Positions 22,164-39,447 of a DNA stretch of 42,167 bases are shown piece after piece. The notes beneath the pieces were generated by a model. The model was not told where the DNA came from. It did not search any database and saw only the letters and a program-made list of their open reading frames with translations. Numbering within the stretch: position 1 is the stretch's first letter; every line of letters begins with the position of its first letter. The translations under genes were made by a program, and so were the position numbers. This DNA comes from Vicinamibacteria bacterium (GTDB lineage Bacteria > Acidobacteriota > Vicinamibacteria > Fen-336): assembly GCA_025923995.1 (NCBI GenBank), contig JAICEW010000013.1:1-42167 (forward strand), given 5' to 3'.

Positions 22164-22166
22164 GTG

Positions 22167-22172
22167 TATGAT
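22167..22172 (+). promoter_or_regulatory. Candidate -10 element for the PP2C-kinase module
   Basis: TATGAT (5 of 6 matches to the -10 consensus) lies just after the DnaJ-TPR stop, 55 nt before the PP2C ATG. No good -35 hexamer is seen 16-18 nt upstream. It may be a weak or activator-dependent start, or the module may be read from the upstream promoter at 19511. Confidence 0.3.
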
Positions 22173-22227
22173 TGCCCGCGTTCGCGAAGCACCCGCGCCC
22201 CGCTAAGGAGCCATCGCTGGTCCCTGC

Positions 22228-22992
22228 ATGAAAGTCACCTACCAGGCGCTCACGGACGTGGGCCGCAAGCGCAAGGGCAACGAGGACAGCCTCTTCGTGA
22301 ACGCCGAGCAGAAGCTGTTCGTCGTGGCCGACGGCATGGGCGGGCACGCCGCCGGCGAGATCGCGTCCAGCATCGCGGTCGACTCCATCAACGAGTTCGT
22401 CTGCCTCACCGGGGGGGACGAGGAGATCACCTGGCCCTTCGGGCTGGACGAGACGATCTCCTACGACGGCAACCGCCTGAAGACGGCCGTCCGCTTCGCG
22501 AACAAGAAGGTCCTGGAGGCGACCAAGGAGAAGTCGGAGTACGAGGGCATGGCCACCACCGTCTGCGCGGTGCTGGTGGACGACGCCGTGGCCAACCTGG
22601 CGCACGTGGGGGACAGCCGCGTGTACCTGATGAGGGACGGCGAGCTGAGCCAGCTCACGAGCGACCACTCGTGGGTCAACGAGCAGATCCTCAGCGGCGT
22701 CATCTCGCCCGAGCAGGCACGCAGCCACCCGCTGCGCAACGTCGTCACGCGCGCGCTGGGCGGCAAGGCGGACCTGCAGGTGGACATGCAGGCGCACGAG
22801 ATCGAGGCGGGCGACGTGCTCCTGCTCTGCTCCGACGGCCTCACGACCATGATCCCGGACGACGAGATCGCGCGGGTCATGCGCGAGAGCGGAGGCGACA
22901 TCGAGAAGGCCGCCCAGGCCCTCGTGGACGCCGCCAACGCCAAGGGCGGCGAGGACAACATCACGGTGCTGCTGCTGAAGTTCGAGGAATGA
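22228..22992 (+). CDS. PP2C-family Ser/Thr protein phosphatase
   Basis: This 254-residue cytoplasmic phosphatase of the bacterial PP2C (Stp/PrpC) type removes phosphates from Ser/Thr-phosphorylated proteins using two Mn/Mg ions. All metal motifs are present: GRKRKGNEDS (D20), VVADGMGGHAAGE (D35), HVGDSRVYL, LLLCSDGLTTM and GGEDNITVLLLKF. The gene lies 23 nt before the kinase gene, the usual phosphatase-kinase pairing, so the kinase is its likely substrate. AAGGAG is visible but 17 nt from the ATG, which is long. No in-frame start lies closer to it, and the conserved N-terminus supports this ATG. Confidence 0.94.
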   Translation: MKVTYQALTDVGRKRKGNEDSLFVNAEQKLFVVADGMGGHAAGEIASSIAVDSINEFVCLTGGDEEITWPFGLDETISYDGNRLKTAVRFANKKVLEATKEKSEYEGMATTVCAVLVDDAVANLAHVGDSRVYLMRDGELSQLTSDHSWVNEQILSGVISPEQARSHPLRNVVTRALGGKADLQVDMQAHEIEAGDVLLLCSDGLTTMIPDDEIARVMRESGGDIEKAAQALVDAANAKGGEDNITVLLLKFEE

Positions 22993-23015
22993 CGCATCCC
23001 TCCTTGGACGAGTAG

Positions 23016-25001: not shown

Positions 25002-26479
25002 TGCGGGGCGCGCGCGCCGTCCTCGCGATGCTGGCGGCCCTCGCGGCGTCGTCCGCGTCCGCGCAGCCGGGGCCGAACGAGCAGGCGCGCGGCCTGCTGG
25101 AGGACGGCCGGGCGTACCTCAAGAGCGGCCAGACCAAGCAGGCGGTCGACAACTTCAACACGATCGTCAGCGGCTTCTCCGGCACCGACTCGGTGGACGA
25201 CGCGCTGCTCGAGATCGGCCGCTGGCAGATGGACGTCGAGAGGAGCCCCGACAAGGCGCGGGCCGCGTTCGAGGACGTCACCAAGCGCTTCCCGCAGTCG
25301 GACGGCGCTCCGGGGGCGTACTACCACCTGGGCCGGCTGGCGCTCGCGCGCGCGACCACGACCGCCGAGCTGGACGACGCGCTGGCCCAGTTCGTGCGCG
25401 TCCAGCGCCTGTATCCCGGCAGCGAGTGGGTGCCGCGCGCGCTGCACGGCGCCGCGCTCGTGCACCGCAAGGCGGGACGCCTGCCCGACGCGGTGGAGGC
25501 GGCGCGCAGCGTCGCGCTCGAGTATCCCAACAGCGACATCGCACCCGAGGCCTACTTCGAGGCGGGGCACGCGCTCGCCCTCATGGGCGAGCCGAGGCCG
25601 GCCATGGAGGAGCTGCAGCAGATCCGCAACCGCTTCCCCGACAGCGAGTGGGCCCCGCGCGCGCTCGAGCGCATCACCGCGCTGTACCGGCTCTTCGGCG
25701 GGCCCGCGCCCGCCTTCGCGGCGGACTCCTCCTTCTCCCTGGGGGCGGGCGACGTGCTCAAGGACGTGCGCGCGCTGCTGGTGACCGGCGACGGGCAGAC
25801 GTGGGTCGCGTCCGACAAGGTGAAGGGCGTGGTCCCGTTCGCTCCCGACGGCAAGATGGGACCGAGCCTCACGGGCGTGGACCTGCGCAGCCTGTCCGCG
25901 GGGCCGCGCGGCGAGCTGGTGGTCGCGGCGCGCCTGGCGGTGCGCATCGGGCCTCGCGACATCCGGTCCTTCTCGGTGCCGAGCGACAAGCCGGGCGTGC
26001 CGGAGCCGCTGGAGCGCATCGAGGCCGCGCTGCTCACGCCGGGAGGCAACCTGCTCGTCGCGGACGGGAAGCACAAGAAGGTCTACCGCTTCGACGGCAA
26101 GTTCCAGTTCAGGGACGCATTTCCCGACCCCAAGGAGCGCGAGGTGACGCGCATGACGCTCGACCCGGACGGCGGGCTGGTCTTCCTGGACAAGGACCTG
26201 AAGACGGTCACCACCTACGACGAGACCGGCAAGCCGCTGCGCACGATCGCCGCGCGCGGGGCCGGGTACGAGCTCAAGAAGCCGGTGGACGTCGCGGTCG
26301 ACGCGTTCCGCCACACCTACGTGGCCGACCAGGAGGGGGCCGTGCTCGTGTTCTCGCCGCAGGGGAAGCTGCTCACGACGCTGGGCGGGACCGCGCGGCC
26401 GACGGCCCTGGCGCTCGACGCGACCGGGGCGGTGATCGTGTACGACGACAAGGCCGAGCGCGTGGTGAGGTACAAGTGA
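25001..26479 (+). CDS. Exported TPR and NHL-type beta-propeller protein
   Basis: This 492-residue protein has a signal peptide (MRGARAVLAMLAALAASSASA, then QPGPNE). Residues about 25-240 carry TPR repeats like those of CpoB/YbgF and BamD (GRAYLKSGQTKQAVDNFNTI, YYHLGRLALARA, YFEAGHALALMGEPRPAMEEL). Residues about 255-492 are an NHL-like beta-propeller (GGNLLVADGKHKKVYRFDGKF, GGLVFLDKDLKTVTTYDETGK, YVADQEGAVLVFSPQGKLL). Both are interaction folds. It overlaps the kinase gene by one base and the following gene by four (GTGA). A periplasmic partner of the kinase's PEGA domains is an inference. Confidence 0.82.
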   Translation: MRGARAVLAMLAALAASSASAQPGPNEQARGLLEDGRAYLKSGQTKQAVDNFNTIVSGFSGTDSVDDALLEIGRWQMDVERSPDKARAAFEDVTKRFPQSDGAPGAYYHLGRLALARATTTAELDDALAQFVRVQRLYPGSEWVPRALHGAALVHRKAGRLPDAVEAARSVALEYPNSDIAPEAYFEAGHALALMGEPRPAMEELQQIRNRFPDSEWAPRALERITALYRLFGGPAPAFAADSSFSLGAGDVLKDVRALLVTGDGQTWVASDKVKGVVPFAPDGKMGPSLTGVDLRSLSAGPRGELVVAARLAVRIGPRDIRSFSVPSDKPGVPEPLERIEAALLTPGGNLLVADGKHKKVYRFDGKFQFRDAFPDPKEREVTRMTLDPDGGLVFLDKDLKTVTTYDETGKPLRTIAARGAGYELKKPVDVAVDAFRHTYVADQEGAVLVFSPQGKLLTTLGGTARPTALALDATGAVIVYDDKAERVVRYK

Positions 26480-28653
26480 GGCCGCTGCTGCTGGCCCTCG
26501 TCGCCCTGGCGGCCCTCCCACTCGTCGCCCAGGAGCCGTCGCCGCCGCCCGCGGCGGCGACGGACGTCGACCAGCGGGAGCTGCAGGCCGTGCAGGACCT
26601 GCTGGCCCGCGCGGTGGCGGAGTTCGACGGCGCCCAGCAGAGCCGCTCGATCGTCATCTTCGACGAGATCGTGAACCGGCTGGAGAACCTGCGGCGCCAG
26701 GGATCCCTCCCGCCCCGGGGGCGCGAGATCCTGGTCCAGGCCTACGAGCTGCGGGGCCGCGCGTACTACAACATCGGGCTCTCGGAGAAGGCGGCGGACT
26801 CCTTCCGCTCGCTCGTGCAGTTCCAGCCCCAGTACAACATGAGCCGCGAGAAGGTCTCGCCCAAGGTGGTGGACTTCTTCGGCTCCGTGAAGAAGGCGCT
26901 CGTCGGCTACCTGGCCGTGTCCACGGTGCCGCCCGGCGCGCGGGTCTCGCTCAACGGCGAGTTCCTGGCGCTCTCGGATTTCTTCCCGCTCGACGTGCTG
27001 GCGGGGGAGTACGCGGTCGAGATCGCGCGCGACGGGTACCAGACCGAGACGCGCACGCTCAGCATCGCCCCGCGCGCCACCGAGACGCTCCAGGTCGACC
27101 TGGTGCGCACGCTGGCCAGCGCGTTCTTCATCACCGAGCCGGCCGGCGTCGAGGTCTGGGTGGACGGCGAGCTGCGGGGCACGACGTCCGGATCGCTCTC
27201 TCCGGACCGGCACGAGGCGGCGCGGGCCCAGGGGCTCGACCCCTCGCGCAGCTCCGACCGGCTGGAGGTCACGAACCTCTCGATCGGCGCGCACCAGGTC
27301 GAGCTGCGCCGCAAGTGCCACGAGATCGCGCGCCGCACGCTGGAGCTGCCGGAGCCGAAGGACTACGACCCGGACCCGGTGAAGCTCGAGGAGTCGGTGG
27401 GAACGCTGAGCCTGCGCTCGGATCCGCCGGGCGGGCGCATCTTCCTCGACGGCGAGGGGATGGGCGTGACGCCGCGGGAGCTGCCCCGCGTGTGCTCCGG
27501 ACGCCACCGCATCGAGGTGAAGCACCCGGCCGGCCGCTTCATCCAGGACCTCACGCTCGAGAAGAACGAATCGAAGACGCTGGACTGCCCGATCCGTCCC
27601 AGCCTGGCCTTCCTGGGCGTGGTGGCGGAGAGCCCGGCGGGCGAGCGGGTGCTGGCCGATGCGGAGGAGCGGATCCTCGAGAACCTGGCCCGCGTGTCGT
27701 CGCTCAACTTCATCCCGGCCCCCCGCGACACGGTCGAGCGCATCCTGGACCTCGAGAAGCTGGGCCGGCGCGGGCTGGTGCCCGGGTCGGGCACGGAGCC
27801 GGACGTGCTGCGCAAGGTGACCGAGAGGCTGGCGGCCGCGCTGGAGGTGCAGGGCTTCCTGATCGCGGTGCTGCCGGAGGAGAAGCTGCAGCGGACGGCG
27901 GTGCTGCACCTGCTGGCCGCGGGCAACACCGTGTCGGACCGCTGGAGCGTCAACTTCGCGGAGTCCGCCGCGTACCTGCGCTTCCTGGCCGCGGTGGACC
28001 GGCGGGCCGCGCTCCAGCGGCCGTGGAGCGGCCTCATCACCGTGGACACGCTGCTGCACGACGGCGTGCCCGTGCTGCGCGTGGTGCCGGGCAGCCCCGG
28101 AGCACTCGCCGGCGTGGCTCCGGGCGAGGTGCTGCAGGCGCTGGACGGGCAGCCGGTCAAGAAGACCGCCGACTGGCTGGCCGCGCTGGGCTCGCGCAAG
28201 GCGAAGGACAAGGTGTCGCTCAAGCTCTCGGGCGCCTCGGGCCCGCGCACCGTCGAGCTGGCGCTGTCCGAGACGCCGCAGGAGATCCCGCTCAACGACC
28301 CGACGCTCCTCTACAACAAGGTGATGATGGACCTGCGGCAGCAGGTCGAGGGCTACCCGGGGACCGAGGCGGCCGCGTTCGCGCGCCTCAACCTCGCGCT
28401 GTGCGCGATGCACTTCGCCGACTTCGCCGCCGCGCACGAGCACCTGCTGAAGGCGCGCGAGGAGCTGCCGCGCCGCGCGGGCGTCTCCCAGGGCACCGCG
28501 CTCTACTACCTCGGGCTCGCGCTGGAGCGGCTCGGGTACCGCAAGGAGGCGGCCGACGCCTACCGCGCGGCGGCCGCGTCCACCGACGCCACGCTCCTCA
28601 ACAACGACGGGCCCGCCGTGTCGGCCCGGGCCTCGCGGCGCCTGACCCCGTGA
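26476..28653 (+). CDS. Exported multi-domain PEGA-PDZ-TPR protein
   Basis: This 725-residue protein begins at GTG 26476, overlapping the previous stop (GTGA), with a signal peptide (MRPLLLALVALAALPLVA). A helical/TPR-like region comes first (to about 140). Three PEGA-type segments follow: STVPPGARVSLNGEF near 146, ITEPAGVEVWVDGEL near 217 and SDPPGGRIFLDGEGMGVTP near 314. Residues about 375-510 resemble the alpha/beta fold of exported CsgG/TolB-N-type domains, but only loosely. A PDZ domain (about 515-600: VPVLRVVPGSPGALAGVAPGEVLQALDG) and C-terminal TPRs (620-715) complete it. No protease residues are seen, so it looks like an assembly or sensing scaffold. Confidence 0.82.
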   Translation: MRPLLLALVALAALPLVAQEPSPPPAAATDVDQRELQAVQDLLARAVAEFDGAQQSRSIVIFDEIVNRLENLRRQGSLPPRGREILVQAYELRGRAYYNIGLSEKAADSFRSLVQFQPQYNMSREKVSPKVVDFFGSVKKALVGYLAVSTVPPGARVSLNGEFLALSDFFPLDVLAGEYAVEIARDGYQTETRTLSIAPRATETLQVDLVRTLASAFFITEPAGVEVWVDGELRGTTSGSLSPDRHEAARAQGLDPSRSSDRLEVTNLSIGAHQVELRRKCHEIARRTLELPEPKDYDPDPVKLEESVGTLSLRSDPPGGRIFLDGEGMGVTPRELPRVCSGRHRIEVKHPAGRFIQDLTLEKNESKTLDCPIRPSLAFLGVVAESPAGERVLADAEERILENLARVSSLNFIPAPRDTVERILDLEKLGRRGLVPGSGTEPDVLRKVTERLAAALEVQGFLIAVLPEEKLQRTAVLHLLAAGNTVSDRWSVNFAESAAYLRFLAAVDRRAALQRPWSGLITVDTLLHDGVPVLRVVPGSPGALAGVAPGEVLQALDGQPVKKTADWLAALGSRKAKDKVSLKLSGASGPRTVELALSETPQEIPLNDPTLLYNKVMMDLRQQVEGYPGTEAAAFARLNLALCAMHFADFAAAHEHLLKAREELPRRAGVSQGTALYYLGLALERLGYRKEAADAYRAAAASTDATLLNNDGPAVSARASRRLTP

Positions 28654-28982
28654 GCACGCCGCCGGCGGCGCGGCTGGTGTGGGAGCGGCAGGACGGCTCG
28701 CACGTGGACTTCGCGCTGGCCGCCACGCCGATGGTCGTGGGCCGCGACGAGGAGGCGGACATCCGCGTGGACGAGCCGCTCGTCTCGCGCGCCCACGCGC
28801 GCATCGAGCCGCGCGAGGGGGCGTACGCGCTCCTGGACCTGGGCTCGACCAACTTCACGCGCGTCAACGGCGAGGTCATCCGGGAGCGTGTGCTCCGGCA
28901 CGGCGACGAGCTGCGCTTCGCACGGGCACGCTGCCGCTACGTCGAGGACGGTGTTCCCGATCCCGTGGCGGGCGGCGTCTAG
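28650..28982 (+). CDS. Stand-alone FHA-domain protein
   Basis: This 110-residue protein starts at GTG 28650, overlapping the previous stop (GTGA). It is almost entirely one FHA domain: MVVGRDEEADIRVDEPLVSRAHARIEP, LLDLGSTNFTRVNGEVI and LRHGDELRFA. The phosphothreonine-binding residues of the GR, S..H and N loops are present (the last as TNFTRVNG). FHA proteins read phosphothreonine marks, so it is the natural reader for the kinase two genes upstream. No signal peptide is present, so it should be cytoplasmic. Confidence 0.88.
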   Translation: MSTPPAARLVWERQDGSHVDFALAATPMVVGRDEEADIRVDEPLVSRAHARIEPREGAYALLDLGSTNFTRVNGEVIRERVLRHGDELRFARARCRYVEDGVPDPVAGGV

Positions 28983-28989
28983 GGGCCGC

Positions 28990-29262
28990 TTGTCCATCCG
29001 GCTCGACCGCTGGCGGCTGACCGCCGCCGTCCTCGCGCTGGCCGGCGCGGCCGTGCTGTTCCTCCCGCTGTGCGACCTGGTGTTCGACTGCGGCTGCACC
29101 TGGCCGCTGCTGGGCGGCGCCGAGCGCTGCAACATGCACGCGCCGCGCCCGCCGCACTGCCCGTTGTGCAAGGGTCCGCGCGTCTACGGCCTCGCGTTCA
29201 GCCTCGCGCTGTGGACGGCGCTGTTCCTGCCGATCGATCGGCTGCTGCGCGCGAGCCGTTGA
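28990..29262 (+). CDS. Small Cys-rich two-helix membrane protein, unknown function
   Basis: This 90-residue protein starts at TTG 28990, with AGGGG 4 nt upstream, 7 nt after the FHA gene. Two transmembrane helices (about 11-30 and 66-82) enclose a loop of about 35 residues with C34, C36, C47, C57 and C60; C28 lies at the membrane edge, and H50 and H56 are also in the loop. The basic N-terminus (MSIRLDRWR) predicts that the loop faces outward. CGC...C..H...HCPLC could bind a metal or form disulfides. No named family is recognised. Confidence 0.65.
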   Translation: MSIRLDRWRLTAAVLALAGAAVLFLPLCDLVFDCGCTWPLLGGAERCNMHAPRPPHCPLCKGPRVYGLAFSLALWTALFLPIDRLLRASR

Positions 29263-29356
29263 CGGGCCGCACTCCCTAGCGGTTGGGGCCCGGAGGCCCT
29301 TCCAGGACACCCGAACGCGTGATCGCGCGGATCGTCGGCCAGTCGGCCGGACCGCG

Positions 29357-32300
29357 TCACCGCGGCCGGTACGTCAGGGGCGTGTCGTACGAGAAGCCGG
29401 TGGCGGGCTCGATGGCGACCGCCTTGCCCGTGAGCGTCCCGTACCCGCCGTCGTGCGTGACGGTGATCGTTCCCGACGCGCCGGGCACGACGGTGGCCAC
29501 GTTCAGCACCAGCCCGCGGCGCGCCGGCAGCGCGAACGGGCGCGAGGCGAGCACCGTCCCCTCGGCGCTCCAGAGCCACAGCGTGCCGTTCACCGTGCCG
29601 GCGGTCGGGTTGTGGAGCAGGACGACCGCCTCCTGGTCGCCGGTCGTGTTGAAGCGCGCGAGCGCGGCGGACGCGTCGTAGGCCCGGAGCCGGTACGTGT
29701 CGTCGGCTCCGCAGTCGGTCGAGCAGCCCTGGCTGCGGACGCGCACCAGCTGCGTCAGCGTGCCGGCGGTGCTGTTCTGCCAGCGCAGCGTCCGCGCGTG
29801 GCCGGTCCCGACGGGCGCGCCCGCCTGCAGGATGGTCGAGGTGTCGTGATCCACGCGCTCCAGCGAAAGGGGCAACGCGCCATCCAGGTCGCCCGAGACC
29901 TCGTCGAGCACGACCTCGAACGCGGACCGGGGCGGCACGTGGACGGCGAACCGCTCCTGGGCCGGGCTGCCCGCCGGCAGCGCGAGACGCCAGTCGGACC
30001 CGTGCCCCAGCTCACTCCGCAGCGCGAGGTCCATGCGCGTCTCCTCGACGTCGGTGTTGTCCGCCAGGTCGACGTCCACCTGGTCCGCGTCCACCTCGGC
30101 GACCAGGGACACGGAGGTGAACGCGACGGCCTGGACGTCGACGTGGAACGACACGGCCTGGCCCGGGAACATCGTCTGCATCCCGCAGGTGATCTCCACG
30201 TCGTCCGGCGACGCGCAGGCGGCGTCCGGGAGGTCGATCAGGGTGACGCCCGGCGGCAGCGAGCAGTGCGTGAGCACGCGTGACGCCGCGTACGCGCCCT
30301 GGTTGACGACGTCGAGCGTGTAGCGGAAGCGCTGTCCCGGCTGCACCGGGTCGGCGCTGTCGCTCACCGACACGGCCAGGTCGACGGGGTTGATCTGCGT
30401 GCGGAACGAGGTGAAGTTGTCGGCGGGCTCGGTCTCCTCCGGAGCCAGCGCGTGGGCGTCCGCCCAGCCCGCCGGCTGGCCCCCTCCGTTCTCCGACGTC
30501 GTGGCCACGACCGTGAGCTGGAACGACGCCCCTGAGGCGAGCGTGGCCAGGTCGCAGGTCACGAGGTTCGCGCTCTCCGCGCAGAGCGGCAGGCTCGGCG
30601 TGTGCGACACGTAGGACATGCCGATGGGCACCCGGAAGCGGAGGCGGGGGCCCGTGGCGGGCAGCGGGCCGCGGTTGACCGCCGTGGCCACGTAGGTGAC
30701 CGGGTCGCCGCTCGGCGCGGGGTCCGGCGAGCCCTCGACGGCGATCGCGAGGTCCGTCCCCGCGCCGGGGGCGCGCCCGCGCAGCACGGTGAGCGTGTCG
30801 CCCTCGGTCACGAGCGCGGCCAGGTCCGCCCGGCCGTCGTGGTCGAGGTCCGAGGCGAGAAGGGCCCGCGTGTTGCCGCCGACGGGGATAGGGGCCGCCT
30901 GGAAGAGGCCGAACGAGCCGTCGCCGCTGCCTCGCAGCAGGTGGACGCCCGTGGCGGCGCTCGAGAACTCGAAGGCCGCGACGTCGGGACGCCCGTCGCC
31001 GGTGAAGTCGGAGACGGCGAGCGAGGTCGGCAGGATCGGCGGCTGGACGACGGCGGGACCGAACCCGCCCAGGCCATCACCCAGGCGCACACCCAGCCCG
31101 CCGGGCTGGGGCAGCGGCTGGTGGTCGCCGCCGCCCACCAGGTCGAGCCGGCCGTCCGCGTCGAGGTCCGCGGCCGCCAGCGCGTGCTCGGCGGCGTAGA
31201 GGTCGATGGGCGGGCCGGCCACGAAGGACTCCACGCCGGTGCCCGACAGCAGCTGGAGCCGCAGGTTGCCGCCCTGCGGCGCGCGGAACCACGCCAGGTC
31301 GGTGCGCGCGTCCGCGTTGAAGCGGCCCGCGGCCAGCGCCAGCGAGCCGTCGCCCACGACGGTGGTGCCGCCCAGGCTGAAGGTGCCGTCCGCCACGCCG
31401 TGGAGGACGAAGATCGCGTCGGCGGTCTCGTTGGCGACGGCGATGTCGGTGACGCCGTCGCCGCCGAAGTCGCCCAGGGCCAGGCTCTGCGGCACGCCGC
31501 CGACGGGGTAGGAGGCTCGAGCGAACCCACCCGCATGGTCGTTGAGCAGCACGACCACGTCCTGGGTGCCCGCGTGCGCGACCGCCAGATCGGGCCAGCC
31601 GTCGCGGTCGAAGTCCGACGTGACGAGGTCGACGGGGCCGGTGCCTGTCAGCGTCGAGGACGCCGGACCGAACCCGCCCTGACCATCGCCTCGCACCACG
31701 GAGACCGTGCCGCCGGCGTGCGCGGCGGCGACGTCCGGGTGGCCGTCGCGGTCGAAGTCGGCGGCGACACCGGCCGTCGCCTCGGGCGGGATGGGGAACG
31801 TGCGCTGGGCGGCGAAGAGGCCCGCGCCATCCCCCGCCAGCAGGCTGGCGCCCGCGACCAGGTCCAGGCGTCCGTCGCCGGTGAGGTCCGCGAGGGCCAG
31901 GTCTCCCGACACTCCGTATCGGCGTGGCGACAGCACGCCGCCCGCGCCGTCGCCCGCGTAGGTCCAGACGCCGGCCCCGGAAACCGCGATGTCGGGCCGC
32001 CCGTCGCCGTCGAAGGCGCCGATCCGCACGCGCCTGGGGTTGGCCGGGGCGGGCACGATGGCGGGCGCGCCCAGCGAGCCGGTCCCGTCCCCGCGCAGGA
32101 TCGAGAGCGTGCGCCCGCGCTGGTCCGCCGTGGCCACGTCGAGGCGCCCGTCGCCGTCGAGGTCGCCCGCGTCGATGCCCTGGGGCCCCTCGCCGCAGGG
32201 GAAGGGTCCGCGCACGGTGACGGCCAGCGTCGCGCTGCCCAGCAGGACGAACACCGCGTTGCCGAAGTTGTCGGCGACGGCCACGTCGTCGCGCCCGTCG

Positions 32301-32899
32301 CCGTCGAAGTCGCGCGCGACCAAGCCGTACGGGAGCAGCACCATCGGCAGGTTCCACACGACCGGCGCCGCGAAGGTGCCCGCGCCGGTCCCGCGGTAGA
32401 ACAACGCCTGGGCCACGCTCGTGAACCCCCGGTGCGACAGCGCGAGGTCGCGCCGGCCGTCCCCGTCGAAGTCGCCGGCGGCCAGACCCGTGTTGAGCGG
32501 GTCGCCGCCGAGGCTGACGCCGGCGAAGCGGCCGTCGCCGAGCCCCAGGTACACGGCGGGACCGGTGGCGAAGTCCGCCAGCGCCAGGTCCAGGCGCCCG
32601 TCGCCGTTGAAGTCGGCGGCGACGAGGGCCTCGGCGGTGGAGGACGTCGAGGTGGCGACCTGCGAGACCAGCGGGACGCCGTACCCGCCCTGGCCGTCGC
32701 CGAGCGTGACGGCCACGCCCGTCGGGTTGTGGAGCGCGTAGGCGACGTCGAGCCGCCCGTCCCCGTTGAAGTCGCCGGTGGTGACGGGGCCGGTCGTGAG
32801 GCGCGTGACGGGCAGCAGGGGGGCCGAGACGAGGTGCTGCGTGGCGCGCGCCGGCGCCGCGGCGAGCAGGCACAGGGCCGCCGCGCCGAGCGCGCGCAT
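29357..32899 (-). CDS. Large exported FG-GAP/VCBS-repeat protein with DUF11-type domains
   Basis: This 1180-residue protein has a signal peptide (MRALGAAALCLLAAAPARA). Residues about 30-740 contain around 14 FG-GAP/VCBS units, each with a Ca2+-binding loop of the GDFNGDGRLDVA type, as in integrin-alpha propellers; a few loops are degenerate (GRFNADARTDLA). Residues about 745-980 hold two CARDB/DUF11-like beta-sandwiches (DLAIAVEGSPDPAPSGDPVTY, DLAVSVSDSADPVQPGQRF). The last 200 residues are a beta-rich region without a recognised anchor or sorting signal. It is probably secreted or surface-attached and calcium-stabilised. Only 2 nt separate it from the EAL gene upstream, so it is the last gene of the c-di-GMP operon. 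Confidence 0.85.
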   Translation of the reverse strand: MRALGAAALCLLAAAPARATQHLVSAPLLPVTRLTTGPVTTGDFNGDGRLDVAYALHNPTGVAVTLGDGQGGYGVPLVSQVATSTSSTAEALVAADFNGDGRLDLALADFATGPAVYLGLGDGRFAGVSLGGDPLNTGLAAGDFDGDGRRDLALSHRGFTSVAQALFYRGTGAGTFAAPVVWNLPMVLLPYGLVARDFDGDGRDDVAVADNFGNAVFVLLGSATLAVTVRGPFPCGEGPQGIDAGDLDGDGRLDVATADQRGRTLSILRGDGTGSLGAPAIVPAPANPRRVRIGAFDGDGRPDIAVSGAGVWTYAGDGAGGVLSPRRYGVSGDLALADLTGDGRLDLVAGASLLAGDGAGLFAAQRTFPIPPEATAGVAADFDRDGHPDVAAAHAGGTVSVVRGDGQGGFGPASSTLTGTGPVDLVTSDFDRDGWPDLAVAHAGTQDVVVLLNDHAGGFARASYPVGGVPQSLALGDFGGDGVTDIAVANETADAIFVLHGVADGTFSLGGTTVVGDGSLALAAGRFNADARTDLAWFRAPQGGNLRLQLLSGTGVESFVAGPPIDLYAAEHALAAADLDADGRLDLVGGGDHQPLPQPGGLGVRLGDGLGGFGPAVVQPPILPTSLAVSDFTGDGRPDVAAFEFSSAATGVHLLRGSGDGSFGLFQAAPIPVGGNTRALLASDLDHDGRADLAALVTEGDTLTVLRGRAPGAGTDLAIAVEGSPDPAPSGDPVTYVATAVNRGPLPATGPRLRFRVPIGMSYVSHTPSLPLCAESANLVTCDLATLASGASFQLTVVATTSENGGGQPAGWADAHALAPEETEPADNFTSFRTQINPVDLAVSVSDSADPVQPGQRFRYTLDVVNQGAYAASRVLTHCSLPPGVTLIDLPDAACASPDDVEITCGMQTMFPGQAVSFHVDVQAVAFTSVSLVAEVDADQVDVDLADNTDVEETRMDLALRSELGHGSDWRLALPAGSPAQERFAVHVPPRSAFEVVLDEVSGDLDGALPLSLERVDHDTSTILQAGAPVGTGHARTLRWQNSTAGTLTQLVRVRSQGCSTDCGADDTYRLRAYDASAALARFNTTGDQEAVVLLHNPTAGTVNGTLWLWSAEGTVLASRPFALPARRGLVLNVATVVPGASGTITVTHDGGYGTLTGKAVAIEPATGFSYDTPLTYRPR

Positions 32900-32901
32900 G
32901 C

Positions 32902-34134
32902 TCAGGCGGGCTCGGGGCCCGGCTCGGGGCGCGCGAGCAGGAAGCCCTGCCCCCAGCTCACGCCCATGGACAGCAGGGCGCGCGCCTCCTCCTCCGCGTG
33001 GATGCCCTCCGCGATCACGGTGGCGCCGATGCCGCGCCCCATGGCCACGATGGCCTTCACCATCTCCCGGTTGACCAGGCTCGCGTGCACGTCGCGCACC
33101 AGCGCGATGTCGATCTTGAGGAAGGTGGGCTTGAGCCGCGCGATCGACTCCAGGCCCGAGTAGCCGGCCCCCACGTCGTCGACCGCGAACGACATGCCGA
33201 GGTCGGTGTAGTACGTCATGGCCTCGCGGAAGAGCGTGTAGTTGTCGATGACCAGCTTCTCCGTGATCTCGATGACGATGCGGTCGGGCGACACCTGCGC
33301 CCGGTCCAGGAAGTCGATCAGCGCCTTGCCGCGGAACTGCGGGTCGCGGATGGTGCCGGGGAGCGTGTTCACGAAGATCTTGGCGGTGGAGGGGATGCGG
33401 GAGGAGGACAGCAGCGCCCGCTGGCGGCAGAGGCGGTCGAGCTCGACCAGCAGCTCGTGCGCCTCCGCGGCCCCGAACAGCGCGTCGGCCGGCTCCAGGC
33501 CGGAGCCGCGCGCCCCGCGGGAGAGCGCCTCGTAGCCCAGCACGGTGCGGGTCTGGAGGTCCATGATGGGCTGGAACGCGGTCACGATGCGCTCGCGCAG
33601 GATGATGTCGAGCAGCCGCTCGCGCATCTGCAGCTCTTCCGCCTGCCGCTGGTGCGCCGCCTGCCGCAGCGCGTGGTGGTAGGCGCCGCGGACGCTGCGC
33701 TCCGGGTGGACCAGCGGGTTGTAGACGGCCATGCTGTAGCCCACCTCGATGCGCGGCGGGGTCTTGAGGTACGGGAACGCCGACCGGCCCAGGCTGGGCG
33801 CGAGCGACGCCAGCAGGCGGGACTGGATTGCCTTCAGGTCCGCCGGCGTCGTGGGGACGCTGCGCCGCCGCTTGCGTCCCAGCAGCAGCAGGAAGCGCAG
33901 GCCGCGCGGCCGGTCGAGCGCCAGCACGTCGTCGTTGCGGTAGTCCTTGCCCTGCTGCTCGAGCAGGATGGTGGTGATGCGCGCCCGCACCTCCTCGAAC
34001 GCGTCGCTGCCGTATTCGCTCTCGACCACGCCGATGGGGGACGCGTCCATCACGATCACGCCCAGGCTGCCCCGCTCGGCCAGCTCGCGGGACAGATCGT
34101 TCAGGTGCTCGTGGTACGAGGGGATCGTCTTCAT
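32902..34134 (-). CDS. EAL-domain c-di-GMP phosphodiesterase with degenerate GGDEF-like region
   Basis: This 410-residue cytoplasmic protein carries a C-terminal EAL domain (about 180-405) that should hydrolyse c-di-GMP to pGpG. Every catalytic residue known from RocR-type enzymes has a counterpart: E202 (YEALSRG), N256 (FVNTLPG), E289 (VIEITE), D319 and D320 (AVDDVGAG), K340 (FLKIDIA), E376 (IAEGIHA) and Q396 (GQGF). Residues 1-150 look like a GGDEF domain that has lost its motif (LLLLGRKRRRS in its place), so it is probably regulatory. Its ATG overlaps the stop of the upstream EAL gene (ATGA). Confidence 0.9.
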   Translation of the reverse strand: MKTIPSYHEHLNDLSRELAERGSLGVIVMDASPIGVVESEYGSDAFEEVRARITTILLEQQGKDYRNDDVLALDRPRGLRFLLLLGRKRRRSVPTTPADLKAIQSRLLASLAPSLGRSAFPYLKTPPRIEVGYSMAVYNPLVHPERSVRGAYHHALRQAAHQRQAEELQMRERLLDIILRERIVTAFQPIMDLQTRTVLGYEALSRGARGSGLEPADALFGAAEAHELLVELDRLCRQRALLSSSRIPSTAKIFVNTLPGTIRDPQFRGKALIDFLDRAQVSPDRIVIEITEKLVIDNYTLFREAMTYYTDLGMSFAVDDVGAGYSGLESIARLKPTFLKIDIALVRDVHASLVNREMVKAIVAMGRGIGATVIAEGIHAEEEARALLSMGVSWGQGFLLARPEPGPEPA

Positions 34135-35447
34135 CGAGTGGACGCGTCTTCCATCGGGATGAGGACGGGCGGCGCCAGGTGTCGCCCCTGGCCCAGCGGC
34201 ACGCCCAGGCCGCTCACGGCCACGAGCTCCGCCTCGGACTCGATCCCGGCCGCGATCACGCGGGCGCCGATCTTGGCCGACAGCTCGACGAGCGTCTCCA
34301 GCAGGCTGCGCTGGATGCGGTTGTGGGCGAGCGGGCGCACCAGGGACACGTCGAACTTGAGGTAGTCCGGCTCCATCTCCACCAGCGCCTGCAGGCTCGC
34401 GTAGCCCGCGCCGGTGTCGTCGATCGCGACCTTGAAGCCCTCCTGCTTGAGCCGGCGCACCACGCGCTGGTAGCGCCGCCGCTCCTCCATCGAGAAGCCG
34501 CCCGTGATCTCCAGCACCACGTCGCCGTGGGCCAGGCCCTGCGCGTCCACCTGCCGGATGAAGGCCTCGCCGGCGACCGCCTCGTCGAGCAGCGCGCGCG
34601 CCGAGGTGTTGAGGAAGAGCTTCACGCCCGGACGCAGGTGGCGGAACGCGGAGCGCAGCGACCGCCGGCGGCACAGCCGCTCCAGCTCCAGCAGGCGCCC
34701 GAACCGCGAGGCCAGCGCGAAGAGGCGCTCGCCGTCCTCGAAGGGGCCTCCGGCCGGGCCGCGGCTGAAGACCTCGTGGCCCACCGCGTGCCGGCCCGAG
34801 AGGTCCACGATCGGCTGGAAGAGCGTGACCACGCCGCCGGCCAGGATCTCTTCCAGCCCCTGCGAGCGCCGCTCCGCCTCCGCGGTGTGCTCGCGCAGCG
34901 TCTGGAACATGGCCTCGTCCAGCGCGCGATGCAGCGAGCGCTCGGTGCGCAGCATGGGATCGCGGTACAGGAACGAGTGGCCCAGCCGGAAGGAGGGCAG
35001 CGGCCCCGGCTCCGGGCGCAGCTTCCGCAGCGCACCATGGACCTGCTCGCGCAGCCGGTGCAGCCGCGTGTCCGCGCTGGGAGCGTCGGTGCCGCCCTGG
35101 TCGCCGCGCAGGAACACGAGGAACTTGTCGCTGCCCACGCTCAGGAGGGAGACGATGTCGCGGGGCCCCAGCCCGCCCTCCACCTTGAGCGACAGCAGCG
35201 CGCGACCCATCAGCACGACCGGGTCCGCCTCGCGGGCCGGGTCGGCCGGGGCGTTGTCGGGCCGCGCGAGGTCCAGGTAGACGAGGCCCGCCGTGCCGCG
35301 CTCCTCGGTCAGGCGGCGCACGTCGTCGAGCACCGCCGCCAGCGTGGGCAGGCCGGTGGCTCCGTCGACCACGTGCGCGCGGAAGCGCAGCCACTCGGCC
35401 TGCAGCCGTTCGTGGTCCGCTTCCACCGAGGTCTCCGGCTTGAGCAT
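34131..35447 (-). CDS. EAL-domain protein, predicted catalytically inactive
   Basis: This 438-residue protein has a degenerate N-terminal GGDEF-like region (VGSDKFLVFLRG, about residue 104, in place of GGDEF) and a C-terminal EAL fold (about 200-425). Several catalytic positions remain: E225 (in HEVFSRG rather than EAL), N280, E313, D343-D344, K364 and Q420. The Glu in the usual AEG(V/I)E loop is Ala here (IAAGIESE, A400); that Glu is the general base in RocR. It may therefore bind c-di-GMP or its partner without cutting. It lies 25 nt after the response regulator and overlaps the active EAL gene. AGAGG precedes the ATG. Confidence 0.87.
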   Translation of the reverse strand: MLKPETSVEADHERLQAEWLRFRAHVVDGATGLPTLAAVLDDVRRLTEERGTAGLVYLDLARPDNAPADPAREADPVVLMGRALLSLKVEGGLGPRDIVSLLSVGSDKFLVFLRGDQGGTDAPSADTRLHRLREQVHGALRKLRPEPGPLPSFRLGHSFLYRDPMLRTERSLHRALDEAMFQTLREHTAEAERRSQGLEEILAGGVVTLFQPIVDLSGRHAVGHEVFSRGPAGGPFEDGERLFALASRFGRLLELERLCRRRSLRSAFRHLRPGVKLFLNTSARALLDEAVAGEAFIRQVDAQGLAHGDVVLEITGGFSMEERRRYQRVVRRLKQEGFKVAIDDTGAGYASLQALVEMEPDYLKFDVSLVRPLAHNRIQRSLLETLVELSAKIGARVIAAGIESEAELVAVSGLGVPLGQGRHLAPPVLIPMEDASTR

Positions 35448-35472
35448 CTGGGGCGCCTCTAGAGACCGCGCG

Positions 35473-35850
35473 TCAGGCGCGGGGGACCTGCGCGAAGATG
35501 GCCTCGATCTTGCCGAGCAGCTCCGTCAGGGAGAACGGCTTGCAGATGTAGTCGATGGCCCCCTCCTGCAGTCCCTGGACGCGGTCCTTGGCCTCGGTGC
35601 GTGCCGAGAGCATGGCCACGGGGATGCGCCGCGTGTCGTCGTCGACGCGCAGCAGCTTGAGCACCTCCCAGCCGTCCATCTGCGGCATCATGATGTCGAG
35701 CAGCACCAGGTCGGGCTTGTCGATCTGCGCGCGCGTCAGCGCCTCGTGGCCACCGGACGCGGTCGTCACCTGGTAGCCCTTCTCCCGGAGCACCATCTCC
35801 AGGAAGTGCAGGATGTCGTCTTCGTCGTCCACCACCAGGATCTTCTTCAT
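35473..35850 (-). CDS. Single-domain response regulator (CheY-like)
   Basis: This 125-residue receiver domain stands alone. It has the acidic pocket D8-D9 (VVDDEDD), phosphoacceptor D52 (LVLLDIMMPQMDG), S82 (MLSAR) and K104 (CKPFS), so it should accept phosphate. With no output domain it probably acts through protein contact. Its ATG overlaps the stop of the hybrid kinase (ATGA), making that kinase its likely phosphodonor; downstream targets may be the two EAL proteins in the same operon. Confidence 0.92.
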   Translation of the reverse strand: MKKILVVDDEDDILHFLEMVLREKGYQVTTASGGHEALTRAQIDKPDLVLLDIMMPQMDGWEVLKLLRVDDDTRRIPVAMLSARTEAKDRVQGLQEGAIDYICKPFSLTELLGKIEAIFAQVPRA

Positions 35851-38171
35851 AGGCTCGCCTGCTGCGCCCTCCCCGCGGTTCCCAGGTGCCGACGCACCTC
35901 CGTCATCAGCTCGCGCACGTCGAACGGCTTGCTCATGTACTTGCGCGCGCCCATCTCCAGCACGCGGCGCACGTCGGCGTCGTCGCCCCGGCCGGAGAGG
36001 ATGAGCACCGGCACGGGCGTGGCACCGCGGCCCAGCGCCTCCAGCACGTCGAACCCCGACAGCTCCGGCATCATGAGGTCCAGGATCACGAGCGCGGGAT
36101 GGCGCCGCTCGATCGCGTCCAGCGCCTGGCGCCCGTCGTGCGCCACCACGGTTCGGAAGCCCTCGACCCGCAGCGTGTCCCGCACCAGCTCGGCGGTGTC
36201 GAGGTCGTCGTCCACCACCAGCACCGTGGGCTCGGCGTCGGGGTGGCCGGCCAGCACGCGCCGCACGCTCGCCGCCAGCGTGGCGCGCTCCACCGGCTTC
36301 ACCAGGTGCTCGGCCGCGCCCAGCGTGAGGGCCTTCACCGCGTCCTTCAGCACCGACACCACCAGCACCGGGATGTGCCGCGTGGCCTGCTCGCGCTTGA
36401 GCGAGGCCAGCAGGTCCAGCCCGGAGCGGTCGGGCAGCATGATGTCGAGCAGGATCACGTCGGGATGGCGCGCGGCGGCCAGCGCCGCCCCTTCCTCCGC
36501 GCTGGCGGCGGTGAGCACGGCCAGCCCCTCCTGCATCAGGTCCGCGCTCACGCGGCGGGTCAGCTCGACGTCGTCGTCCACCACCAGCACCAGGCCCTCT
36601 TCGGTGCGGTCGCGGGCGCTGGGCGGAGGCTGGTCCTCCGGCCGCTCGAGCAGGGGCAGCCGGAAGTGGAAGACCGTGCCCTTGCCCTCCTCGCTCTCCA
36701 CGTGGATGGCCGCCCCGTGGGCGTCGAGGATGCTCTTGACGATGGCCAGCCCCAGGCCGACGCCGCCGAAGCGGCGGGTGGTGGTGCCGTCCACCTGGTG
36801 GAACCGGTTGAAGATCTTGCTGATCTGGTCGCGCGGGATCCCGATGCCGCTGTCGCTCACGCGGATCTCCGCGGTCGGCCGCTCGGCCCCCGCCACCCGC
36901 CCCGCGGACACGGTGATGCTGCCGCCCTCGGGCGTGAACTTGATCGCGTTGATCACCAGGTTCTCGATCACGGCGGACAGCTTCTCGCGGTCCGCGATGA
37001 GCGAGGGTATGTCCCCCTCCACCGCGCTCAGGAAGCGCAGCCGCTTCTTGTCCAGCTCCGAGCGCACGGTGGTGTGGATCTGCTCGACGAGCGACGCGAT
37101 CGAGAAGCGCTGGAGGTTGAGCGTGATGCGGCCGATGTCCATGCGCGAGAAGTCGAGCAGCGCGCCGATGGTGCGCGAGAGGCGCTCCAGGTTGCGCTGG
37201 ACCACCACCAGCCCCTTCTCCTGCTTGTCGGTGATGTCGCCCAGCTTCCGCTCCAGGATGTAGTCGGTGTAGCCCTTGATGGCCGTGAGCGGCGTGCGCA
37301 GCTCGTGGCTCACGTTGGCCAGCAGGTCCGACTTCATCCGGTCGAGCTCCTTGAGCTCCTCGTTCACGCTGGCCAGCTTCTTGTTCGACTCCTCCAGCTC
37401 GCCGACGTTCTCCTTGAGCCGGGTCGTCATGTGGTTGAAGGCCTCGGCCAGGATCTGCAGCTCGTCGCCCGAGCGGATGTTGAGCCGCCGGTCGAAGTGC
37501 CCTTCCGCCAGCTCCTGCGCGCCCGCGGTCAGCTCCGCCACCGGGCGCGTGATCCGGCGCGCGAGCGCGATGGCCACGCCGACCGCGGCCAGCACCGAGG
37601 CCAGCGTGAGGCCGCCGGTGGTCAGGAGCAGCTGGGAGACCGCCTTGTTCATCTGCCCGTAGGTGACCTGGTAGATGACCGACAGCTCGTGGCGGCCCCA
37701 CTCCTCGAGGTAGGGGGCGATGATCTCGAGCCCCGGCTCCCCGTCGGGGAGGCGGATCTTCAGCACCGTCGGCTCCAGCCGCTTGATCGCGTCGACCCTC
37801 TGCGTCTCCTTGATCAGGCGCGTGGCCGGAGGCTGGCGGGAGACCGCGTCGTCCATGTCGTCCGAGTCGAAGACCACCTCGCCGCTCATGCGCACGATCA
37901 GGATGCGCTCGAGGTCGGGGTTGAGCCGCATCCTGTCCTTGATGAGCTCCCGGAACTTGTAGAAGCCCGACTCGTAGAAGTCGTTGTACGCGCTACAGAT
38001 CGGCGCCTTGGTCAGCTCGGCGAAGTTCAGGGCCTCCTGCTCGATGCGGGTCTTGGTCTTGGAGCGCTGCCACAGCACGAGGTAGAAGCCGTTCAGCGTC
38101 AGGCTCAGCACGATCACCGAGACGATGGCGAGGGCGGTTCGGGTCTGTAGGCTGTTGAGGCGGAGAGCCAT
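35847..38171 (-). CDS. Hybrid sensor histidine kinase with two C-terminal receiver domains
   Basis: This is a 774-residue membrane kinase. Transmembrane helices at about 13-34 and 181-204 flank a periplasmic sensor of about 145 residues. HAMP (204-257) and a short coiled coil lead to HisKA with H289 (NVSHELRTPLTAIKG). The ATPase domain (385-505) has N-box NLVINAIKF, SDSGIGIP and GGVGLGLAIVK. Two receivers follow, with D576 (VILLDIMLPDRSG) and D698 (VILDLMMPELSG), both with the conserved Lys (LVKPVE, MSKPFD). The order allows a phosphorelay to the separate regulator. It is the first gene of a five-gene minus-strand operon. No clear ribosome-binding site precedes the ATG. Confidence 0.94.
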   Translation of the reverse strand: MALRLNSLQTRTALAIVSVIVLSLTLNGFYLVLWQRSKTKTRIEQEALNFAELTKAPICSAYNDFYESGFYKFRELIKDRMRLNPDLERILIVRMSGEVVFDSDDMDDAVSRQPPATRLIKETQRVDAIKRLEPTVLKIRLPDGEPGLEIIAPYLEEWGRHELSVIYQVTYGQMNKAVSQLLLTTGGLTLASVLAAVGVAIALARRITRPVAELTAGAQELAEGHFDRRLNIRSGDELQILAEAFNHMTTRLKENVGELEESNKKLASVNEELKELDRMKSDLLANVSHELRTPLTAIKGYTDYILERKLGDITDKQEKGLVVVQRNLERLSRTIGALLDFSRMDIGRITLNLQRFSIASLVEQIHTTVRSELDKKRLRFLSAVEGDIPSLIADREKLSAVIENLVINAIKFTPEGGSITVSAGRVAGAERPTAEIRVSDSGIGIPRDQISKIFNRFHQVDGTTTRRFGGVGLGLAIVKSILDAHGAAIHVESEEGKGTVFHFRLPLLERPEDQPPPSARDRTEEGLVLVVDDDVELTRRVSADLMQEGLAVLTAASAEEGAALAAARHPDVILLDIMLPDRSGLDLLASLKREQATRHIPVLVVSVLKDAVKALTLGAAEHLVKPVERATLAASVRRVLAGHPDAEPTVLVVDDDLDTAELVRDTLRVEGFRTVVAHDGRQALDAIERRHPALVILDLMMPELSGFDVLEALGRGATPVPVLILSGRGDDADVRRVLEMGARKYMSKPFDVRELMTEVRRHLGTAGRAQQASL

Positions 38172-38267
38172 GTAGGAGCCGCCGGATCACGCCCGAAAGG
38201 AGTCCCGGGCCGGAATGCCTTGCTCCCAGCTTCCGGACGAGGGCGGGTCTCCCCGGGAGGTGCAGCG

Positions 38268-38295
38268 ATCATAGCCGAGCCGGGGGGCAATGCAA
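38268..38295 (-). promoter_or_regulatory. Candidate promoter for the histidine kinase/c-di-GMP operon
   Basis: Read on the minus strand, TTGCAT (38295-38290) and TATGAT (38273-38268) are 16 nt apart. The -10 matches 5 of 6 consensus bases; the -35 keeps only TTG. It lies in the 262-nt divergent gap between the kinase gene and the MshEN-like gene, about 95 nt before the kinase ATG. The rest of this gap holds no gene that I can support. Confidence 0.45.
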
Positions 38296-38330
38296 CCACC
38301 GGAGGCGGTAAGCGCGTGCAGCGAGCGGAC

Positions 38331-38360
38331 TTCGCCGCGCGGGCGGGCGCGCGATACAAT
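38331..38360 (+). promoter_or_regulatory. Candidate promoter for the MshEN-like gene
   Basis: TACAAT at 38355-38360 matches 5 of 6 bases of the -10 consensus. The best -35 is a weak TTCGCC at 38331-38336, 18 nt upstream. Predicted transcription begins near 38367, about 67 nt before the TTG start. With the minus-strand candidate at 38268-38295 it forms a divergent promoter pair within 100 bp, which would allow joint control. Confidence 0.4.
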
Positions 38361-38433
38361 ACGCGGCCGGCCCGACCCGTCACCCGCGCCGTCACGATCG
38401 ACCTCGAGCCTCCGGAGAACTAGGAACAGCCGC

Positions 38434-39447
38434 TTGCCCATCCTCGCCCGCATCCTCAAGGACCGGGGCATCGTCACCGAGCGCCAGCTCCAGGAGGCGA
38501 TCCAGCACCAGGTGCTCTACGGCGGGAGGCTGGGGACCAGCCTCTACGAGCTGGGCTTCATCACCGAGGACCGCCTGCAGGAGGCGCTGGCGCGCGCGCA
38601 CGGCGTGCCGGGCATCTCGGTCGACCTGCGCGAGGTGCAGCCGGAGGCGGTGGCCGCCCTGCCGAAGGCGCTGGCCGCGAAGCACAAAGTGTTTCCGTAT
38701 CGACTGCGCGGCAAGACCCTCACGCTGCTCATGGTCGACCCCAACGACCATTCGACGGTCGCGCGCATCGGGTACTCGCAGGGCTTCATCATCCGGACCG
38801 CTGTCATCCCCGAGTTCCGCATGATCCAGCTGCTGCGCGACTACTACGGGGTCGACGAGCGTTGGCGCTTCACGGACACGCACCGGCCGTCGGCCGCGAC
38901 CGTGAAGCGCGACGCGCCGACGGGCGCGACCGCGGCCGCGCGCCTGGACGACGCCGTCACGCGGGACGAGGTGGTGGAGGCCCTGCTCGCGGTCTGCCAG
39001 CGCTTCTTCCGCCGGGTGCTGTTCTTCATCGTGAAGGAGCCGTGGGTGCTGGGCTGGAGCGGGGCGGGCGAGGGCGTGGACCGTCCGCTCGTCTCGTCGC
39101 TGCGGGTGCCGCTCGACCAGCCCTCGATCTTCCGCACCGTGACGCGCGACCGCTCGCTCTTCATCGGCCGGCTCGGTCCCGAGGAGGAGAACCAGCGCTT
39201 CCTGAAGGCGCTGGGCAAGCGGCCGCAGTCCAGCGCGGTGCTGCTCCCCGTGTCGCTGCGCAGCCGGGTCGTGAACCTCGTGTACGGGGACAACGGGGCC
39301 ACGGACCGCGTGCGCGGCGACCTGGGGGAGCTCATGGTCCTGTTGCAGAAGGTGCCGCGCGCCTACCTGCGCATCATCCGCAAGCGCGTCGCCGACGCGC
39401 GGGCGCTGGTGGGCGAGGAGCCGGAACACGTCGAAAGGAACGACTGA
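38434..39447 (+). CDS. MshEN-like (GspE N-terminal type) domain protein without ATPase
   Basis: This 337-residue protein starts at TTG 38434, with AGGAA 7 nt upstream. Residues 1-135 resemble the MshEN/T2SSE N-terminal domain, which in MshE binds c-di-GMP through two RLGxxLxxxG...L...L..Q motifs. Here motif 1 has ILARILKDRG (no Arg-Leu-Gly, final Q26 kept). Motif 2 has R32-L33-G34, G41, L48 and L52 but Ala at the final Gln position. Binding is therefore uncertain. Residues about 175-337 look GAF-like (FFIVKEPWVLGW, SSAVLLPVSLRSRVVNLVYGDN). There is no Walker ATPase. It is divergent from the c-di-GMP operon. Confidence 0.75.
   Translation: MPILARILKDRGIVTERQLQEAIQHQVLYGGRLGTSLYELGFITEDRLQEALARAHGVPGISVDLREVQPEAVAALPKALAAKHKVFPYRLRGKTLTLLMVDPNDHSTVARIGYSQGFIIRTAVIPEFRMIQLLRDYYGVDERWRFTDTHRPSAATVKRDAPTGATAAARLDDAVTRDEVVEALLAVCQRFFRRVLFFIVKEPWVLGWSGAGEGVDRPLVSSLRVPLDQPSIFRTVTRDRSLFIGRLGPEEENQRFLKALGKRPQSSAVLLPVSLRSRVVNLVYGDNGATDRVRGDLGELMVLLQKVPRAYLRIIRKRVADARALVGEEPEHVERND

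Follow-up and report, generated by a model that had tools for sequence, protein, structure and literature searches.

The Lap system combines the adhesin LapA, the c-di-GMP receptor LapD and the protease LapG, and C-terminal sorting domains on exported proteins are familiar from T9SS and PEP-CTERM. Among c-di-GMP receptors, MshEN proteins are characterised in the available text of PMC5013675 by two 24-residue RLG...Q motifs. For EAL domains, the available texts report that losing the first Glu of the EGxxE motif abolishes the activity of TBD1265 while the second Glu is dispensable (PMC12943098), and that domains without the catalytic base are classed as inactive (PMC12900916). ASRT-type (ASRAH) domains are proposed in PMC2739507 to bind sugars, and two of their residues are singled out there: a conserved Asn that closes strand 2, and a Trp with which strand 1 opens.

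In this report, we analysed a locus in a stretch of 42,167 nucleotides (hereafter the window; GC 0.724) for which the initial annotation had proposed a single operon joining a two-component relay and two EAL proteins to a secreted FG-GAP protein. This led to two findings: four of these genes are probably a conserved c-di-GMP turnover operon that an unrelated fifth gene has joined, and the product of the fifth gene belongs to a family of 62 proteins sharing a C-terminal module. We consider that the module family matters more than the operon and is the more surprising find. The source genome (G000), a 6.8-Mb draft of 592 contigs that is 96.8% complete, is the sole genome of its genus in our sample, and in named collections the related contigs belong to MAGs of Acidobacteria and Vicinamibacteria. 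The features of the locus are the following.

35847..38171, minus strand: hybrid sensor kinase, 774 aa; HAMP, HisKA, HATPase_c and two receivers by Pfam; N-terminal sensor part without Pfam match
35473..35850, minus strand: stand-alone receiver REC, 125 aa; one receiver by Pfam; overlaps the kinase gene by 4 nt
34131..35447, minus strand: EAL1, 438 aa; probable degenerate GGDEF-like half followed by EAL (Pfam and structural model)
34500..34502, minus strand: EAL1 codon 316, Gly (coordinate computed from the gene start)
34248..34250, minus strand: EAL1 codon 400, Ala (coordinate computed from the gene start)
32902..34134, minus strand: EAL2, 410 aa; N-terminal half without Pfam match, then EAL (Pfam)
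29357..32899, minus strand: FG-GAP protein, 1180 aa; signal-peptide-like start, FG-GAP repeats, two DUF11 and a C-terminal module
29360..30013, minus strand: the C-terminal module, 218 aa; PPC-like domain, then ASRT/TM1070-like beta-sandwich
38434..39447, plus strand: divergent MshEN protein; start codon picked from relatives and uncertain, ORF opening at 38290

Re-derived from the sequence, the positions, order, sizes and spacing of the five minus-strand genes were all as first annotated, with overlaps of 4 nt between kinase and REC and between EAL1 and EAL2, and gaps of 25 nt between REC and EAL1 and of 2 nt between EAL2 and the FG-GAP gene. Pfam likewise bore out the domain content given for the hybrid kinase, the lone receiver and the two EAL genes, and an in-house score agreed with the predicted secretion of the FG-GAP protein, in which Pfam finds FG-GAP_3 in 11 stretches besides the two DUF11 domains, and which contains nine DxDxDG-type loops.

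The C-terminal region of the FG-GAP protein recurs throughout its own genome. When its last 457 residues were used as query, G000 yielded 65 matches, and 16 other genomes together yielded six weak ones, mostly to the DUF11 part. An iterated profile of the module retrieved 62 copies among the fetched stretches of G000, and a profile search of the order in which all candidates were scored gave 62 copies in G000 and none in the 16 other genomes. Further afield, at least 6 of 193 genomes of the class had a match when the best candidates (up to 15 per genome) were scored, G000 included and the other five weak, and at least 24 of 396 genomes of the phylum did so on the best candidates (up to seven per genome), again including G000, with the others weak and nearly all confined to the second half of the module. 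Rescoring with a local profile showed that two of the remote relatives (L093 in G127 and L094 in G104) match the module almost from end to end (L094 also has a second, partial match) and that a third (L095 in G192) matches its second half; all these matches lie near a C terminus. As judged from these searches, G000 alone of the genomes covered shows the expansion, and the module seems to derive from an older domain of the class. A foreign or contaminant source was rejected: the module loci have a mean GC of 0.721 (range 0.640-0.749, n=52), close to that of the window, and the window is syntenic with the family.

The architecture of these adhesin- and enzyme-like proteins is uniform at one end and extremely diverse at the other. 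In all 61 copies uncut by a contig end, the module stops 0-3 residues before the end of the protein, and the last residue is R in 47, H in 6 and K in 3 (56/61 in all). A predicted signal start passed our in-house score in 35 of the 62 proteins, and 7 of the other 27 are cut at the 5' end or have no start; the signal-peptide, gene-calling and Shine-Dalgarno criteria used for the family are home-made. Passengers of at least 90 aa are carried by 44 of the 62, and across these 44 Pfam recognised 46 families, including Calx-beta (29 proteins), DUF11 (15), beta-helix (6), FG-GAP (4) and GSDH (3), as well as single GH44, M4 and M10 enzymes. A further 16 are short module proteins, of which one is cut, and two more are cut fragments. 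The 15 complete short proteins, about 260-280 aa long (L082, L089, L120, L126, L131, L132, L133, L135, L136, L137, L139, L140, L141 and L142), consist of the module alone behind a lead of under 50 residues, which comprises a signal-peptide-like start and in many cases a stretch reading DVWD or DxWE. The short proteins cluster on the tree (3 changes, against a shuffled mean of 13.4). We also considered a shared neighbour gene serving the module and rejected it, the largest neighbour cluster comprising 5 loci and being passenger-like.

The module was modelled with high confidence (mean pLDDT 95.6, pTM 0.90), and its two halves resemble different known domains. Residues 1-114 align with the PPC domains of ColG and of Bacillus (Z 10.4-11.1, rmsd 2.4-2.5, 92-96 residues aligned), and residues 110-218 with TM1070 (1nc7; Z 13.2, rmsd 2.6, 103 aligned) and ASRT (2ii8; Z 8.9). 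Foldseek gave low TM scores for the module, which we attribute to matches that cover one half at a time. In an alignment of 58 of the 62 copies, leaving out two truncated at the N-terminal side, one whose C terminus is lost at a contig end and one that begins only at position 9 of the model, the ASRAH Asn is kept as N135 in at least 90%. The G000 copies have Arg-Phe in place of the ASRAH Trp, which the remote relatives L093, L094 and L095 do have. At the level of sequence, no model of Pfam or NCBIfam scores above its cut-off against the module, NCBIfam gives no match up to E 1 and Pfam no PPC family up to E 10, the sole family-model match being DUF5719 on the second half (E 0.0079, below its cut-off). 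A search of PDB sequences with the module profile gave a best E of 0.88, and the available open-access literature, searched for the module motif and for C-terminal sorting in Acidobacteria, yielded no description of the module.

We infer that this is a lineage-specific surface-retention or sorting module, which would keep proteins at the surface through sugar binding or serve as a sorting tag. In its full form, our proposal is that the PPC-like and ASRT-like domains make up an undescribed C-terminal surface-sorting or retention system, amplified to 62 predicted exported proteins in one Acidobacteriota lineage from a domain that is missing in the order's other sampled genomes and has one or two copies in remote members of the class, with the stand-alone module proteins possibly acting in the same surface layer as competitors or as building blocks. 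This we put forward tentatively, as a possibility well short of an even chance. A narrower alternative, which we regard as unlikely without being far-fetched, is that, instead of binding surface sugars, the module is a dedicated sorting signal recognised by an exporter or processing enzyme yet to be discovered. Its strictly C-terminal position in 61 of 61 uncut copies, the prevalence of R, H or K as last residue and the great diversity of the passengers would all suit such a signal. However, 15 complete copies consist of little more than a signal-peptide-like start and the module, which is odd for a pure tag, and no gene family recurs widely beside the module genes. In addition, the last strand of the fold contains a conserved FD, so that the protein end may simply be the domain end. 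If the module is an anchor or a sorting tag, it would offer a handle on surface building and enzyme secretion in these bacteria, and the surface-retention or sorting system proposed here would, if true, be a natural example of a tag spreading over dozens of unrelated passengers.

The other finding concerns the genes upstream of the FG-GAP gene. We searched 59 other genomes for EAL1, 13 of them in the family of the source, and found an orthologue in 8 (50-62% identity), every one in that family. The 4-nt overlap of EAL1 stop and EAL2 start is present in 8/8 of these relatives, and kinase, REC, EAL1 and EAL2 are contiguous and in the same order in 7/8; in the eighth (G009) the locus is broken by a contig end and the kinase lies on another contig. 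REC in the relatives is 85-90% identical, and the EAL1 starts in L034-L036 were placed by hand to give a 4-nt overlap with REC. Rows of the query PEGA_26500, whose translation was in a wrong frame (13 stops replaced by X), were excluded. The residues expected of a phosphorelay are in place, with H289 in the HELRTP motif of the kinase and an Asp in both kinase receivers and in the lone REC. A more distant Thermoanaerobaculia contig (L047, 7443-14767) has the kinase, REC, one EAL gene and then a sortilin/BNR-repeat gene, which suggests that the core may predate the second EAL. The sortilin/BNR-repeat protein of L047 (7443-14767) is itself another such protein adjoining a core of this type. Elsewhere in G000 there are paralogues of EAL1 (42%, L037, contig C58) and EAL2 (40%, L038, contig C60), and no kinase or REC match was seen in their fetched flanks. 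On the other side of the FG-GAP gene, positions 21510-28982 of the window encode, going by sequence alone, a Ser/Thr kinase, a PP2C-like phosphatase and an FHA protein, a neighbourhood whose synteny with the core extends to most relatives.

Both EAL proteins were judged correctly at the outset, EAL1 as inactive-looking and EAL2 as active-looking, and the comparison with relatives adds that the former state is probably recent. In EAL1, AEG has become AAG at residue 400 and ITE has become ITG at residue 316. A400 replaces the catalytic-base Glu, the first Glu of EGxxE, and G316 the Glu of the ITE motif, at what we take to be the loop-6-stabilising position; both Glu residues are present in 8/8 relatives. 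Among the nine sequences compared, the loss of catalytic residues is thus limited to the source genome, and inactivity of EAL1 throughout the family was ruled out by the catalytic Glu retained in all eight relatives. In EAL2, by contrast, metal ligands and catalytic base are intact: alignment with BlrP1 places E202, N256, E289, D319, D320, K340, E376 and Q396 at what are presumably the EAL Glu, Asn, Glu, Asp-Asp, Lys, catalytic Glu and Gln positions, and all are invariant in 9/9, the second Glu of EGxxE being His or Gln in 9/9. The branch leading to G000 measures 0.652 for EAL1, 0.209 for EAL2 and 0.333 for the kinase, against 0.234, 0.295 and 0.592 for the path to G010 (stem plus tip); going by these lengths, EAL1 is evolving fast in the source genome. 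EAL1 offers an example of recent loss of catalytic residues next to a partner that retained them. Its model (mean pLDDT 78, built from 9 sequences) aligns with PA0575 (5m3c) over both halves (Z 25.2, 380 residues), at an rmsd of 12 that probably reflects a different angle between the domains. This match to GGDEF-EAL proteins over both halves makes a degenerate GGDEF-like domain the most likely identity of the N-terminal half in the model; by analogy only, the same may hold for EAL2.

Divergent from the kinase is a gene whose product matches MshEN with 45.5 bits in Pfam and 50.7 bits in NCBIfam, each score exceeding the respective cut-off. The gene lies near the kinase in 6/7 relatives, adjacent in 5 and about 1.5 kb off in G010, and it was not found in the G002 stretch. 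Measured against the motif in the available text of PMC5013675, motif I of the window protein has ILA where RLG is expected, and the last residue of motif II is A, not Q. The second half is weakly GAF-like in the L033 copy.

What follows EAL2 differs from relative to relative. The order of five genes, sought in the relatives, is absent from all of them, no FG-GAP gene following EAL2 in 8/8, and the idea of FG-GAP as a conserved partner of the core was abandoned for that reason. In G002, G007, G008 and G010 the slot holds a polytopic membrane protein of about 510 aa whose GTG start overlaps the EAL2 stop (GTGA):

L029:8008-9525, L030:7228-8751, L032:7568-9148 and L033:11578-13110: membrane protein of about 510 aa, one in each of the four relatives

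This protein has no Pfam match. In a search of G000 and 16 other genomes it matched only in the same G002, G007, G008 and G010, so that G000 and the remaining 12 gave nothing. In G005, G011 and G013 the slot is empty and a convergent FHA gene comes directly, and in G009 it holds an opposing gene. The tree of EAL1, EAL2 and kinase places G000 as sister to G002/G010, which both hold the membrane gene, so that the ancestor may have had it too; replacement of the membrane gene by FG-GAP in the G000 lineage is likely but not proved. Judged by gene order, the FG-GAP gene is an apparently recent, lineage-specific neighbour of the core. The five-gene operon first proposed stands in part: kinase, REC, EAL1 and EAL2 are tightly coupled and conserved as a unit, in one piece in 7/8 relatives, and the fifth gene is missing from 8/8. 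The further claim, that a c-di-GMP unit is wired to its own exported protein, finds no support, since the fifth gene has no synteny in 8/8 relatives and its product is one of 62 module proteins. A second protein with FG-GAP, two DUF11 and the module (L129:4724-10264) adjoins a pectate-lyase-like beta-helix gene and not c-di-GMP genes.

The explanation that we favour, and hold to be probably correct as a whole, is that kinase, REC, EAL1 and EAL2 are a conserved four-gene operon for c-di-GMP turnover and that an unrelated fifth gene was acquired in its variable slot. Two observations weigh against it. First, the FG-GAP start has no Shine-Dalgarno by our in-house criteria, by which 35 of the 54 module genes whose start could be assessed do have one, and sits 2 nt after EAL2, which fits read-through or coupled translation into FG-GAP. 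A simple consensus scan of 29100-38500, EAL2/FG-GAP junction included, found neither a sigma-70-like promoter nor, on the minus strand, a terminator-like site; RNA folding at the EAL2/FG-GAP junction was unremarkable (z 0.55). Judging from the sequence, a message shared with EAL2 is plausible, and these features also fit a genuine new five-gene unit. Second, EAL1 lost its residues in the same genome that gained FG-GAP, which could be rewiring and not decay. A further caution, on how recent the junction is, comes from the source genome being a draft in 592 contigs and alone for its genus here.

The junction features and the EAL1 changes feed the strongest competing account, that of a newly evolved five-gene device: sharing one message with the FG-GAP gene and acting through c-di-GMP, the relay and the EAL pair would control how much of the FG-GAP protein is made or displayed. 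EAL1 is altered solely in the genome with FG-GAP, and 4/8 relatives have a different envelope-type gene coupled to EAL2 at this position. Nevertheless we think such a device improbable, given that the five-gene order is absent from 8/8 relatives, that the FG-GAP architecture is found again in the L129 paralogue and that 61 other proteins carry the module. Still more doubtful, at perhaps a slim chance, is that FG-GAP is transcribed alone from a promoter inside EAL2 and that the tight junction is an accident of insertion. By home-made criteria, a co-directional coding-like ORF ends 30 nt or less upstream of only 8 of 54 module genes with an assessable start, so that tight packing behind another gene is not the rule in the family; however, no promoter-like site was found in the scan, which used the sigma-70 consensus only, and the lack of a Shine-Dalgarno suits coupled translation. 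Least credible of all is Lap-type control, to which the initial annotation had likened the locus and in which an inactive EAL protein with bound c-di-GMP would restrain a periplasmic protease that otherwise releases the FG-GAP protein: an inactive-looking GGDEF/EAL protein is indeed present and its model aligns with the EAL domains of LapD and FimX, among others, but no LapG-family match was found in the genome and EAL1 and EAL2 match only EAL in Pfam, with no HAMP and no periplasmic part.

With the conserved operon and its acquired neighbour as the preferred reading, we can propose how the locus would work. The hybrid kinase would sense an outside signal and pass phosphate to the lone receiver, which may act on the EAL pair through protein contact. 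Action of the pair would lower c-di-GMP near the MshEN protein, the probable reader. EAL2 would be the only likely phosphodiesterase here, with EAL1 as a c-di-GMP-binding or docking partner. The FG-GAP gene, acquired by this lineage in the variable slot, would probably be read on the EAL2 message across the 2-nt gap. The locus also serves as a warning: a neat five-gene junction in one genome resembled a dedicated device, and eight relatives show otherwise.

The comparison with described systems highlights both similarities and differences. The first half of the module shares its fold with the PPC or clostridial collagen-binding domain, but no Pfam PPC model matches it and it is always followed by a second domain. 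The second half shares the beta-sandwich fold and the Asn of the ASRAH superfamily (ASRT/TM1070), from which it differs in being strictly C-terminal, single, fused to a PPC-like domain, present in 62 paralogues and devoid of the Trp in G000. Like T9SS and PEP-CTERM substrates, the family consists of varied predicted exported proteins with one common C-terminal region; unlike them, it gives no NCBIfam match up to E 1, has no terminal hydrophobic stretch and is a two-domain fold of 218 residues. SprA (TIGR04189) had no match in G000, and likewise none in the control genomes, and GspD secretin, sought with type II secretion in mind as the export route, gave partial matches on several contigs, none above cut-off. 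Turning to c-di-GMP signalling, the locus recalls Lap in that c-di-GMP proteins lie near the gene for a large exported repeat protein and one EAL protein is probably without catalysis. It departs from Lap in that the association is not conserved, the LapD-type architecture (periplasmic input, HAMP, GGDEF, EAL) is not seen by Pfam in EAL1 or EAL2, and, as already noted for the window, LapG was not found (PF06035, Peptidase_C93, had 0 matches in this 96.8% complete draft; the control matched 1/14, in Caulobacter); a Lap-type device here is unlikely. The MshEN protein shares with known receptors a domain above curated cut-offs, and differs from them in its weakly GAF-like second half (L033 copy) in place of an ATPase and in motifs that are imperfect by the available account. 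Finally, EAL1 shares its fold with the degenerate GGDEF/EAL proteins FimX, PA0575, MorA and LapD, unlike which the EAL proteins here stand two in tandem, bear no attached sensor or receiver and have a hybrid kinase and a lone receiver as coupled partners, making the operon a modest variant of EAL-based c-di-GMP signalling.
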